A stretch of 33,882 nucleotides of DNA. Source: Bacillota bacterium (lineage in GTDB: Bacteria > Bacillota > SHA-98 > UBA4971). This document shows positions 27,426 to 32,324 of this stretch, one piece after another. The stretch lies in contig JAAZLO010000014.1 of NCBI GenBank assembly GCA_012689375.1, positions 1-33,882 of the forward strand, read 5' to 3'. A model generated the notes under the pieces. It was not told the DNA's origin. It ran no database searches and was given only the letters and a program-made list of their open reading frames with translations. Position 1 is the first letter of the stretch. Each line of letters begins with the position of its first letter. A program made the translations under genes and the position numbers.

Positions 27426-28595
27426 GTGAAAGGTTATCGAATGTATTTGGTGCTAATCTCCCTTGCTTTAGTCCTAGTGTCGGCATTGGGAACCGGTGCT
27501 CTTGGAGCAGGCAAACTTGATCCTATCAGAATCGGCCTTCAGGCGCCTATTACAGATCAGTGGGCTTACGAAGGAGAGATGGCCAAGAATTGTGTACAGA
27601 TTGTCGCAGATGAAATCAACGGAAAGGGGGGAATTTTAGGAGGTAGAAAAATCGAAATTGTTGTAGGTGACGATCAGGGTAGTGTAAGACAAAGTGCACT
27701 TACAGCCCAGCGAATGATTAGTGAAAAAGTTGTTGCAGTAATATCCACATATGGATCATCAGTAGCTGAACCTTCTGCTACTATTTACGAAAGAGAAGGT
27801 CTTCTTAATATAGCCTATGGTGCGACTGCAGTTGAACTTACTGAGCGTGGATGGAAATACTTTTTCAGGACATGTTTCAAAGATGATCACCAGGGGACTT
27901 TCTTTGCCCGATTTGTTAATGGTACCCTTAAGGTAGGGAATGTTGCTGTCCTTCATGACAATACAACATTTGGTAAGGGATTGGCAGAAGCTGCCCGTGT
28001 ATCTTTAGAAAACGCAAATAAGGCAAAAATTGTATTCTATGACGCTGTAACTCCGGGTGAAAGGGATTTTACCCCAATACTTACCAGAATGCAGAAAACC
28101 AATCCTGATGTAGTTTACTTTACAGGGTACTATCCTGAAGCAGGATTAATTGCGCGACAGATGAGAAGCTTAGGCAGTAAAGCCATATTTGTCGGTGGCA
28201 ATGCGGCAATTAACGATGAATTTGTTGAAATTGCCGGTATAGACGTGGCAAAAGGTTCTCTTACAACTCAGGAACCACTGCCTATCCACCTGGAATTTCC
28301 TGAATCTAAGGGGTTTTTAGATGAATATATTTCCAGGCATAATGCCCCCCCAAGTAGCCCATGGCCTGTTTATGCTGCAGATGCTCTTAAAGTGATTGCT
28401 GCTGCCATAGATAGTACAGGCTCAACTGATTCTAAGGTACTTGCTGATTACATCCGAAATGAAATGAAGGACTTACCCGGAATCACCGGCCCTATTGGTT
28501 TCGATAGTCTTGGAGACAGAACAGGTGCTATGTACCTGGCCTACGAAGTCACTCCGGACGGAACCCTCCAACCTTACCAACCTTACCAACCTTAG
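27426..28595 (+). CDS. livK: Branched-chain amino acid ABC transporter substrate-binding protein LivK
   Basis: 389-aa periplasmic-binding protein type I (Leu/Ile/Val, amide or urea type). It has a signal peptide (MKGYRMYLVLISLALVLVSA, cleavage near GALGAG) but no lipobox. KLDPIRIGLQAPITDQWAYEG and GKGGILGGRKIEIVVGDDQG are typical. The GTG at 27426 has AGGAGGTG 8 nt upstream. The C-terminus ends in PYQPYQP, encoded by a 9-nt tandem repeat whose third copy supplies the stop. First gene of livKHMGF. Substrate may be branched-chain amino acids or amides. Confidence 0.93.
   Translation: MKGYRMYLVLISLALVLVSALGTGALGAGKLDPIRIGLQAPITDQWAYEGEMAKNCVQIVADEINGKGGILGGRKIEIVVGDDQGSVRQSALTAQRMISEKVVAVISTYGSSVAEPSATIYEREGLLNIAYGATAVELTERGWKYFFRTCFKDDHQGTFFARFVNGTLKVGNVAVLHDNTTFGKGLAEAARVSLENANKAKIVFYDAVTPGERDFTPILTRMQKTNPDVVYFTGYYPEAGLIARQMRSLGSKAIFVGGNAAINDEFVEIAGIDVAKGSLTTQEPLPIHLEFPESKGFLDEYISRHNAPPSSPWPVYAADALKVIAAAIDSTGSTDSKVLADYIRNEMKDLPGITGPIGFDSLGDRTGAMYLAYEVTPDGTLQPYQPYQP
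28569..28595 (+). repeat. 9-nt tandem repeat at the livK 3' end
   Basis: CAACCTTAC (28569-28577), CAACCTTAC (28578-28586), CAACCTTAG (28587-28595). The in-frame unit encodes Gln-Pro-Tyr, and in the last copy TAC is TAG, ending livK. Confidence 0.9.
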
Positions 28596-28678: not shown

Positions 28679-28744
28679 GGCTATTAACAAGATATCCTGT
28701 GTTTGGTTTACAATAAAATGATTTTATAGAATTGAAGCCGGATT

Positions 28745-28813
28745 GGAGGTGCCCGCGCGGGGGTAGCTGCGTTATTTGCGTGTTGCTTATAACTTTCCCC
28801 CCGCGCGGAAAGT
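28745..28813 (+). promoter_or_regulatory. livH leader: Shine-Dalgarno separated from ATG by a GC hairpin
   Basis: GGAGGT (28745-28750) is followed after 2 nt by CCGCGCGGGGG (28753-28763), which pairs perfectly over 11 bp with CCCCCGCGCGG (28798-28808). Only AAAGT then separates it from the livH ATG (28814). No other good ribosome binding site lies near the ATG. Folding would reduce the linear 63-nt gap to about 7 nt. Confidence 0.65.
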
Positions 28814-29719
28814 ATGGTTTTATTTATTGAACAGCTTGTTAACGGATTAACAGTCGGTGCAGTCTATTCCCTGGTAGCGCTAGGGTACACTATGGTATAC
28901 GGCGTGATGAGAATGATAAATTTTGCACATGGCGATTTCTTTATGATTGGATCCTACCTTGGATTTACTCTCATCAGCAGTGCATTTTTAGGTAGAACTA
29001 TCCCCCTATGGGTTGCTCTTACCATTATGGTGCTCTTTTCCATGGGTGGGGTGGGAGCTATCGGAATTATAGTAGAACGTGCAGCATATCGGCCTCTAAG
29101 GAAAACAAGTAGGCTTACTGCGGTGGTTTCGGCAATCGGAGTTTCGATTTTTTTACAGAATGCCGTGATGTTAATTTGGGGACCAAGATACCGGGCATAC
29201 CCCTCTTGGTCTGTACCTGATGTAACCTGGCAGGTGGGGGGCATCTATATAAATCTTATGCAGGTACTAATTTTAAGTATTTCAATTGGTCTTATGGTTG
29301 CATTGTACTTCTTTGTTCAGCGTACAACAGTAGGTGCTGCAATTAGGGCGACTGCCATTGATCATGATACTGCCAGACTCATGGGGATAGATGTTGATCA
29401 GATAATACGGTTGATTTTTCTGATTGGGCCTGCATTAGGTGCTGCAGCCGGGGTATTGCTTGGATTATATTATAGGCAAATCCATTTTACCGTAGGTTGG
29501 ACTTACGGACTTAAGGCATTTACTGCCGCAATTATGGGTGGTATCGGAAACATACCTGGGGCCATGGCCGGCGGGCTCCTTTTAGGTATTCTGGAAATGC
29601 TGGGTGCAGGTTATATTTCTTCTGCTTGGAAAGACGTATTTGTGTTCTTCATTCTTATATTGCTTCTCATATTCCGACCTACAGGGCTTCTCGGAGAACG
29701 CATTGCGGAGAAAGTCTGA
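28814..29719 (+). CDS. livH: Branched-chain amino acid ABC transporter permease LivH
   Basis: 301-aa membrane permease. The N-terminus EQLVNGLTVGAVYSLVALGY and YTMVYGVMRMINFAHGDFFM are hallmarks of LivH. DHDTARLMGIDVDQI contains the coupling loop, and the C-terminal FRPTGLLGERIAEKV is typical. The ATG at 28814 gives the standard family N-terminus, and an in-frame stop at 28790-28792 excludes an upstream start. Translation initiation appears to depend on the hairpin-bridged ribosome binding site described separately. It is separated from livM by 16 nt. Confidence 0.95.
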   Translation: MVLFIEQLVNGLTVGAVYSLVALGYTMVYGVMRMINFAHGDFFMIGSYLGFTLISSAFLGRTIPLWVALTIMVLFSMGGVGAIGIIVERAAYRPLRKTSRLTAVVSAIGVSIFLQNAVMLIWGPRYRAYPSWSVPDVTWQVGGIYINLMQVLILSISIGLMVALYFFVQRTTVGAAIRATAIDHDTARLMGIDVDQIIRLIFLIGPALGAAAGVLLGLYYRQIHFTVGWTYGLKAFTAAIMGGIGNIPGAMAGGLLLGILEMLGAGYISSAWKDVFVFFILILLLIFRPTGLLGERIAEKV

Positions 29720-29735: not shown

Positions 29736-30746
29736 ATGCTTGCGGAAACAAAAGAAATAAATCCAAAGAATAGATTAAAGACATCCTTCCCTAAAATTAA
29801 AACTTATTTATCTAAATGGGGGCTGCTCTTTGTCATTGTACTAGCAATCATTTTTCCAATAATTGCTGATAATTACTGGGTAGATGTTGCTGTGTATTGG
29901 GGAATATATGTAATTTTAGGCTTGAGTCTAAATATAATAGTCGGAGAAGTCGGCTTATTTAATATGGGTCATTCTGCATTTTTTGCCATAGGTGCGTATA
30001 CAACTGCTATATTAAGTGGGAAATTTGCACTGTCCCTTTGGCTGTTAATCCCTATAAGCGGTTTTATCGCGGGAGTCGCCGGATACCTGCTTGCCAAACC
30101 TATAATCCATCTTCGTGGCGATTATCTCCTGATGGTAACAATAGGGCTTAATGAGATAGTACGGATTACACTTTTAAATAATCCTTTAGGGTTGACAGGT
30201 GGTCCGAACGGCATCATTATGTTGGATCAGTTCAAGATATTCGGATATACAATACAACGCCCTATAGATTTCTATTATCTTGTTTGGATATTTGTTGCAA
30301 TAACGGTAATTATTCTAATCCGGCTTCAGAATTCACGAATCGGCCGGTGTTGGAATTTTGTACGGGAAGACGAAATTGCAGCTGCAGCTATGGGGATTGA
30401 TACCCATTGGGCAAAACTGGTAGCATTTACCCTTGGGGCTTCAATTGCAGGTGCAGCCGGGACAATTTTTGCCGCGAAGATAATGGTAATTTCACCTGAG
30501 AGTTTTACCTTCATGGAATCTGTGATCCTCTTTTGTATAGTGATTCTTGGTGGGATGGGTTCAATTCCCGGGGTAATTTTAGGTTCAGCCGGTATGATGG
30601 TGCTTCCGGAGCTCCTTAGAAATTTTGCCCAATACAGAATGCTTTTTTTCGGTCTTGCCTTGGTTTTTATGATGATTTTCCGTCCTCAAGGCTTATGGCC
30701 AAGTAAACGTTGGATAACAATTTTAAGGGAGGGGGAAGAAACATGA
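29736..30746 (+). CDS. livM: Branched-chain amino acid ABC transporter permease LivM
   Basis: 336 aa from the ATG at 29736 (GGGTAGGTG upstream; a GTG at 29730 is possible). The upstream open frame back to 29604 lies in livH and is discarded. Signature stretches are GLSLNIIVGEVGLFNMGHSAF, shown here in part, HLRGDYLLMVTIGLNEIVR and VREDEIAAAAMGI (coupling loop). The C-terminal FRPQGLWPSKR matches the family end. About eight to ten membrane segments. The stop overlaps the livG ATG (ATGA). Confidence 0.95.
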   Translation: MLAETKEINPKNRLKTSFPKIKTYLSKWGLLFVIVLAIIFPIIADNYWVDVAVYWGIYVILGLSLNIIVGEVGLFNMGHSAFFAIGAYTTAILSGKFALSLWLLIPISGFIAGVAGYLLAKPIIHLRGDYLLMVTIGLNEIVRITLLNNPLGLTGGPNGIIMLDQFKIFGYTIQRPIDFYYLVWIFVAITVIILIRLQNSRIGRCWNFVREDEIAAAAMGIDTHWAKLVAFTLGASIAGAAGTIFAAKIMVISPESFTFMESVILFCIVILGGMGSIPGVILGSAGMMVLPELLRNFAQYRMLFFGLALVFMMIFRPQGLWPSKRWITILREGEET

Positions 30747-31615
30747 GAAATAAAGGGAAGGCCTTGCTTGAGCTTAGTGAATTAACTAAAAAGTTTGGGG
30801 GGCTTACAGCAGTTAACGGGTTTAATCTTGATATTTCTAAAAACAGTATCACAAGTCTTATTGGTCCTAACGGGGCGGGGAAGACTACTGTTTTTAACTT
30901 AATAACAGGTATTTATTACCCGGAATCCGGCAGCATAACCTTTAACGGGCAGAATCTTGCAGGGAAAGAGCCGTATCAAGTGGCAGAGGCTGGGATAGCC
31001 CGTACATTTCAGACCCTAAGACTATTCGAAAATCTAACTTGCTTTGAAAATGTGCTGTGTGGTCAGCATTGCCGTACTTATTCAGGTATAATCAGTTCTA
31101 TTCTGAGGACCTCCGCACAAAAACAGGAAGAAATCAAAGTGAGGGCTGAGGCTGAACGTTGTTTAAAGCTGACGGATATGTGGGAGTTCCGGGATGAGCC
31201 GGCAAAGAATCTCCCATACGGATACAGAAGGCGTCTTGAAATTGCCCGGGCGTTAGCAACCAAACCACAGCTATTGGTTTTGGATGAACCTGCCAGCGGG
31301 CTTAATGAAAAAGAAGCATTAGATCTTATGGTGTTAATTGAAAAAATAAGAAATTCCGGAGTTACAATCCTTCTTATTGAACACGATATGCAAGTAGTTA
31401 TGGGAATTTCACATTGGATAGCAGTCATGGATAATGGTAAGAAAATTAGCGAAGGCACCCCATACGAGATTCAAAACGATCCTAAGGCTATTAAAGCATA
31501 TCTTGGGACCGATGATAATGACGATTTTTACGGAAGTGAAATAGCGATGGCATTTAACGAAACTAAAACGGTGCCTGAGTACAAAGGGGGGGAAAGGGTA
31601 CATGGGGCTTCTTGA
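30743..31615 (+). CDS. livG: Branched-chain amino acid ABC transporter ATP-binding protein LivG
   Basis: 290 aa from the ATG at 30743, overlapping the livM stop by 4 nt, with GGGAGGGGGAAG upstream. Walker A is GPNGAGKTT, the Q-loop lies in ARTFQTLRLF, the signature is NLPYGYRRRLEIARAL (the LivG-type degenerate LSGGQ) and Walker B is LLVLDEPASGL. The C-terminal part has an extra 25-30 residues beyond the usual end (about 255-260 aa in LivG), rich in acidic and polar residues. The end overlaps livF by 14 nt. Confidence 0.95.
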   Translation: MRNKGKALLELSELTKKFGGLTAVNGFNLDISKNSITSLIGPNGAGKTTVFNLITGIYYPESGSITFNGQNLAGKEPYQVAEAGIARTFQTLRLFENLTCFENVLCGQHCRTYSGIISSILRTSAQKQEEIKVRAEAERCLKLTDMWEFRDEPAKNLPYGYRRRLEIARALATKPQLLVLDEPASGLNEKEALDLMVLIEKIRNSGVTILLIEHDMQVVMGISHWIAVMDNGKKISEGTPYEIQNDPKAIKAYLGTDDNDDFYGSEIAMAFNETKTVPEYKGGERVHGAS

Positions 31616-32324
31616 ACTCCATAATGTAGAAATAGCTTATGGAAATATCCAGGTAGTCAAAGGAATTAACCTTTCAATAAAGGACGGGGAAATTGTAACT
31701 TTACTCGGTGCTAACGGGGCAGGTAAGACTACTACTCTTCAAGCAATATCAGGTCTCCTTAAACTTAAATCAGGGACTATTACATTCAATAATGAAGAAA
31801 TCCAAACAATGCCTGCCCACAAAATTGTTGAATTTGGTATTTGTCATGTTCCTGAAGGAAGAAGGGTATTCGGGACTCTGACTGTAGAGGAAAATCTGAA
31901 CCTTGGTGCTTATAAGTACCGCAATAACTTAAAACATGTTAAGGCAGGGCGCGAACGTGTCTACTGTTTGTTCCCGCGGCTCGGAGAGAGACGTACACAA
32001 TTGGCAGGTACTCTTTCTGGTGGTGAACAACAAATGTTGGCTATTGGACGGGGTCTTATGTCTGATCCTAAGGTCCTTTTACTTGATGAACCGTCTCTAG
32101 GCCTCGCGCCTATACTGGTGCGAGAAATATTCCAGACAGTTTTAGAAATTAACAAACAAGGGGTGACTGTCTTACTTGTCGAACAAAATGCCCGTATTGC
32201 ATTAAGACTTGCTGAAAGAGCTTATGTGCTTGAAACTGGACGGGTTGTATTAAGTGGCAGTTCTTTGGAACTTAGGCAAGATCCTAGAGTGCAAAGGGCA
32301 TATCTTGGAATCAAAGGGGCATAA
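31602..32324 (+). CDS. livF: Branched-chain amino acid ABC transporter ATP-binding protein LivF
   Basis: 240-aa ATPase of standard length. Walker A is GANGAGKTTT, signature TLSGGEQQMLAIGRGLM, Walker B VLLLDEPSLGL. VPEGRRVFGTLTVEENL is the LivF hallmark. The ATG at 31602 has GGGGGGGAAAGG upstream inside livG. It is the last gene of the livKHMGF importer, followed by a 113-nt gap to tRNA-Leu. Confidence 0.96.
   Translation: MGLLELHNVEIAYGNIQVVKGINLSIKDGEIVTLLGANGAGKTTTLQAISGLLKLKSGTITFNNEEIQTMPAHKIVEFGICHVPEGRRVFGTLTVEENLNLGAYKYRNNLKHVKAGRERVYCLFPRLGERRTQLAGTLSGGEQQMLAIGRGLMSDPKVLLLDEPSLGLAPILVREIFQTVLEINKQGVTVLLVEQNARIALRLAERAYVLETGRVVLSGSSLELRQDPRVQRAYLGIKGA

Follow-up and report, generated by a model that had tools for sequence, protein, structure and literature searches.

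A probable hairpin-bridged Shine–Dalgarno sequence ahead of livH in a chromosomal transport operon of the Bacillota

Among the closest described systems are genes 25 and 38 of phage T4, in which an intervening stem shortens the distance between the Shine–Dalgarno sequence (SD) and the AUG from 27 to 11 nt and from 22 to 5 nt, respectively (PMC3014915). Function was demonstrated by mutation, with less translation when the structure was destabilised, and the stem is kept in close relatives and missing in more distant ones, that of gene 25 being located at an intercistronic junction (PMC3014915). These split initiation regions were described by Nivinskas (1999) and by Malys and Nivinskas (2009), as summarised in a review (PMC3014915). 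In Escherichia coli, a hairpin extending from –14 to –48 is found between the SD and a single-stranded standby region of thrS (Sacerdot 1998), and the binding of ThrRS results in repression (PMC3936740, PMC3858243). Another class of distant SDs is that of the E. coli polyamine modulon (oppA, fis, rmf and others), where the gap is of moderate size, for instance 11 nt at one of the rmf SDs, and the bulged-out region has a spermidine-dependent structure (PMC7177335). In the open-access literature on structure between an SD and its start codon, the T4 review alone was found to be relevant; few subscription papers were covered, and a chromosomal precedent may exist.

The present analysis concerns a window of 33,882 nucleotides, the whole stretch of DNA analysed, from a Bacillota MAG (GenBank assembly GCA_012689375.1, contig JAAZLO010000014.1). 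Domain matches identified in it an operon with the order livK-livH-livM-livG-livF on the + strand (Table 1). The livK protein matched NCBIfam PRK15404 (2.2e-70) and the livH protein matched NCBIfam LivH PRK10740 (1.5e-74), both under the curated cutoff, and the livH N-terminus aligns with those of its orthologues (12 sequences). The livK gene has its own SD, GGAGGT, located 9 nt ahead of its GTG start, and its stop codon occupies 28593–28595. The coordinates and pairing that a preliminary description of this junction had given for the SD, stem, loop, linkers and ATG proved exact on recheck, and its reading of the distal SD as the sole strong one agrees with an anti-SD energy of –13.0 kcal/mol, versus –3.5 kcal/mol for positions –18 to –4. 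A second inverted repeat, with 11-nt arms that are 91% complementary and 49 nt apart, is located just past the livK stop (28602–28612/28662–28672); it shows no obvious conservation in relatives and is possibly a stabiliser of the livK mRNA 3′ end.

Table 1. Coordinates of the livK–livH junction and of the operon genes in the window
Feature	Coordinates	Strand	Remarks
livK-type periplasmic binding protein gene	27426..28595	+	Peripla_BP_6 E=3e-46; first gene, upstream of livH
livH SD GGAGGT	28745..28750	+	63 nt to ATG; GGAGGT and the next G invariant in 12 orthologues
SD-to-stem linker GC, 2 nt	28751..28752	+	Length kept in orthologues
5′ arm of stem, CCGCGCGGGGG, 11 bp, perfect	28753..28763	+	Pairing and covariation
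Loop, 34 nt	28764..28797	+	Neither length nor sequence kept in relatives
3′ arm of stem, CCCCCGCGCGG	28798..28808	+	Pairing and covariation
Stem-to-start linker AAAGT, 5 nt	28809..28813	+	Length kept; 6 nt in L045/L046
livH, branched-chain amino acid ABC permease, 301 codons	28814..29719	+	ATG; BPD_transp_2 1.4e-43
livM, livG, livF, downstream operon genes	29736..32324	+	BPD_transp_2 and two ABC_tran proteins

It is likely that livH has a split ribosome binding site, with a hairpin-bridged SD at work in an operon of a bacterial chromosome. On the polycistronic liv mRNA, 47–79 nt separate the SD from the AUG, with a very stable GC-rich hairpin taking up nearly all of this distance and leaving 2 + 5 nt unpaired. 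The 30S subunit could then hold the SD–antiSD helix and the start codon together with the hairpin extruded, the role of the stem being presumably to set the spacing, while the loop would be largely free to vary. From the sequences, we infer that the 30S subunit would initiate across the bridge and that breakage of the stem would lower LivH. Most likely, the arrangement is constitutive and fixes the level of livHMGF translation with respect to livK, rather than acting as a switch.

The evidence comes from a set of twelve livH orthologues, the window's own included, drawn from the same genus, the same family and GTDB genomes and representing two of the family's genera together with two MAGs of more distant relationship; all are MAG assemblies, mostly from one small family, and the sequences are consequently few and related. 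The order GGAGGTG, about 2 nt, GC-rich hairpin, 5–6 nt and ATG was found in the twelve. The linear SD-to-ATG gap is 63 nt in the window and 47, 55, 56, 63, 66, 78 or 79 nt in the others, and with flanks of 2 + 5 nt in nearly all rows, the change in length resides almost wholly within the hairpin. The stem sequences diverge yet pair (CCGCGCGGGGG in the window, CTGCGTGGGGG in L041 and CGGCACGGAGG in L044), and the loops vary in length and sequence even among sister species. Three outer stem pairs are G-U in L043, and the stem of L042 carries a bulge.

In the ten rows belonging to the family, 99.1% of stem cells were paired, against 89.7 (sd 1.9)% with the 3′ letters shuffled and only 40–59% with the arms slid by 1–3 columns. 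Cells changed on both sides numbered 15, versus 5.9 (sd 2.2) expected, and the covariation score was 0.459 versus 0.273 in shuffled data (0/500 shuffles), counts that should not be taken as probabilities because the sequences are related; the slid-arm controls carry equal relatedness, yet fail. The number of pairs showing a two-sided change was four, with no excess over shuffles. With all twelve rows, 89.3% of stem cells were paired and 15 two-sided changes were counted, the score being lowered by a one-column misalignment of the 3′ arm of L045 and L046, which have the 6-nt flank, an effect that the ten-row test avoids. The preliminary description had proposed that the hairpin joins the SD and the ATG, and had suggested comparing stem pairing and flank distances in relatives, naming a lack of covariation or of spacing conservation as evidence to the contrary. 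Such a lack was looked for in the orthologues and did not occur; rather, the stem covaries, the 2 + 5 nt flanks stay constant despite the varying gap and the SD is invariant, which supports the proposed joining.

The distal SD itself is, on comparison of the orthologues, under selection. Between the two genera, identity is 28% over the 40 nt preceding the SD, which is near chance, and 100% over the SD. Across the sequences, the distal SD has anti-SD energies of –13 to –15 kcal/mol and the pre-ATG region has energies of –0.1 to –5.4 kcal/mol, a standard anti-SD being assumed because a fixed-pattern search of the MAG did not locate the 16S 3′ end. The purine-rich nucleotides before the ATG, such as GGAGAGT in L040 and L041, could allow weak initiation there. 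A start codon (ATG, GTG, TTG or CTG) at 3–14 nt from the SD is absent in seven of the twelve sequences and none is shared across the set, and to judge from this alignment the livH ATG is the only conserved target of the distal SD. The SD of L045 and L046 is located 14 nt past the livK stop, which leaves no room for a promoter in between, and the simplest assumption for these two is that livH is translated from the livK mRNA. This short distance, together with the conservation of the SD, makes a transcription start within the hairpin unlikely.

A class-wide search covering 17 species of the class returned no further livH orthologues. In the LivH tree, the twelve bridged genes and L047 form one clade, in which L047, found without the bridge, is sister to L045 and L046; two changes are therefore needed, such as a single gain plus a single loss. 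In the 130 nt upstream of livH in L047 (at 3001), a perfect hairpin, CCAGGCTCCC/GGGAGCCTGG, is located farther upstream, and the nearest SD-like motif is AAGGA, 14 nt from the ATG. L047 may represent a natural loss or a transitional state of the bridge. Among livH genes farther removed (Caldisericota, Campylobacterota and others), the SD is an ordinary nearby one or cannot be recognised.

The stem is also difficult to obtain by chance, since, when the spacer was shuffled 300,000 times with its composition preserved, only 5 shuffles produced an outer helix with no fewer than 11 Watson–Crick pairs under the same flank limits. Taken as a whole, the 121-nt region has an ordinary folding energy (z = –1.66), and the case thus rests on the perfect stem, its placement and geometry, and its conservation. 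A strict scan for the SD–hairpin–start arrangement was run over about 677 kb, consisting of stretches of the own genome, which was covered in part, and of one relative. The livH locus ranked first by a wide margin, with a score of 33, where 0.05 hits were expected at a score of at least 30. A looser scan with folded spacers returned 91 hits versus 68 in shuffles and was hence uninformative. None of four livH paralogues in the own genome and two in G007 showed the SD–hairpin–start arrangement in the 110 nt read upstream. One paralogue (4832–5677 of L132, minus strand; G000:C16) has a perfect hairpin, GGGGTCCGCCT/AGGCGGACCCC, directly before its apparent start, with no SD on the far side. A dispersed palindromic repeat of the REP or MITE type was rejected, the livH hairpin being single-copy in the 1.83-Mb MAG (96% complete); a DNA match to the livK–livH gap at C9 (E=0.005) concerns another part of the gap. 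As a caution, folding in longer context gave the SD an unpaired probability of 0.07–0.36 at 37 °C, and this predicted partial pairing with its surroundings would count against the bridge.

The strict scan also picked a TRAP dctP gene in the sister genus g2 (L143:4305, minus strand; G007:C34:184305), a gene unrelated to livH that was assigned to the TRAP solute-binding family. Its layout is GGAGGT-GA-TGCGCCCGG-GAATG-CCGGGTGCA-CGTCG-ATG, with flanks of 2 + 5 nt, a 9-bp stem and a gap of 31 nt. The gene is present in five of six g2 species, and all five keep the SD, the stem and the distance (orthologues L154–L158). The stem is too uniform for covariation and an ATG directly follows the SD in four of the five species; for these reasons dctP provides supporting evidence and no proof. 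When strict scanning and conservation were combined over 886 kb from G007 and 696 kb from G010/G008, no third convincing case emerged, the remaining conserved hits being weak and resembling coding sequence or poor starts. Little credence is given here to the wider proposal that hairpin-bridged SDs could be a recurrent mode in transporter genes (livH and dctP) and a control point making the permease conditional with the binding protein left on; if it were true, the factor acting at the bridge would be a dedicated one or a feature of the ribosome.

The preliminary description had also suggested a conditional switch operated by temperature, a ligand or a protein, and this part was not borne out, given that the loops are unconserved, that the Rfam search matched no family at E up to 1 and that the stem is predicted to be formed still at 65 °C. 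In fact, between 25 and 65 °C no sequence had a predicted stem probability under 0.79, and the window's own still had 0.99 at 65 °C. A riboswitch or RNA thermometer was rejected, since there is no known aptamer or conserved loop and no melting is predicted in the physiological range. It is unlikely, on the same stem probabilities and Rfam result and without a conserved loop or bulge to receive a ligand or protein, that polyamines, a ligand, a translational repressor or a CsrA-like factor beside the GGA within the SD regulates the bridge, stabilising or melting the hairpin and so toggling livHMGF independently of livK, even though the hairpin sits at the translation start and both split-site hairpins as protein targets (E. 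coli thrS; PMC3858243, PMC3936740) and distant SDs responsive to polyamines (PMC7177335) are known. A transcription attenuator or intrinsic terminator has a practically negligible chance of being the explanation: a stable G+C stem does stand ahead of a gene, but the 11-bp stem is followed by AAAGTATGG and not by a T-run, a scan gives only a weaker, shorter-looped alternative across the 3′ arm, and the downstream sequence of the relatives is coding, ATGGC(A/T)TT.

Binding-protein genes are commonly separated from their permease genes by strong hairpins. This generality, and the weaker inverted repeat just past livK, would fit a hairpin serving as an mRNA processing or stability element (a 5′ stabiliser or an RNase III site), one that fixes the ratio of livK to livH, with livH initiating without the distal SD. 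Such an element is nevertheless quite improbable, because it leaves unexplained both the invariant SD at 2 nt from the far stem base and the constant 5 nt to the ATG, and because no good local SD is available. Very improbable, too, is a reading in which the SD belongs to a leader peptide or to some upstream start, the hairpin then being a palindrome that is there by coincidence or through recent insertion. A GTG overlaps the SD, another GTG occurs 6 nt past it in L040 and L041, and an ATG 5 nt past it in L042, but seven of the twelve sequences have no such start, none is conserved, and the hairpin is single-copy in the genome and covaries across genera. The in-stem ATG of L042 opens a 37-codon frame that is not that of livH and is not found in other species.

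A hairpin that joins the distal SD to the livH start is thus the preferred reading, and it relates to the known systems in different degrees. The site resembles thrS in that a cellular mRNA has a ribosome binding site interrupted by a hairpin, which in thrS is accommodated by the 30S subunit. However, the livH hairpin lies between the SD and the AUG, whereas that of thrS is located upstream of the SD, and for this reason, and because the livH product is a membrane permease, a thrS-type site was rejected. As in the polyamine modulon, the livH SD is unusually far from the AUG and the intervening structure would matter, but livH has a long, near-perfect stem. The likeness to T4 genes 25 and 38 is the closest, since there, as here, a strong SD is too far away for direct use, no adequate SD is found near the start and the intervening structure, in livH a predicted stem supported by covariation, leaves a functional spacing (2 + 5 nt). 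In livH, too, the structure is kept in close relatives (the 12 orthologues) and missing in L047 and in the more distant livH genes that were compared. Differently from T4, livH belongs to a bacterial chromosomal transport operon, its gaps of 47–79 nt would be cut to about 7 nt, and its stem is longer and GC-rich, with compensatory changes and freely varying loops. The parallel is one of mechanism between different genes and organisms, with no homology claimed, the function being shown by mutation in T4 and inferred in livH.

The bridging trick has so far been well documented mainly in phage T4, and here it would occur in a little-studied Bacillota group. Gene finders and models of translation rate generally expect the SD at a short linear distance from the start, whereas the livH operon keeps it up to 79 nt away and what is conserved, through compensatory changes, is the folded rather than the linear distance. 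The livH family may therefore offer a natural test of how a hairpin of 11–17 pairs is accommodated by the 30S subunit when it separates the SD helix from the P-site codon; work on this matter has so far relied mainly on two T4 genes, whose inserts are much smaller. By analogy, the livH junction most likely represents a chromosomal counterpart of the split ribosome binding sites of T4 genes 25 and 38.
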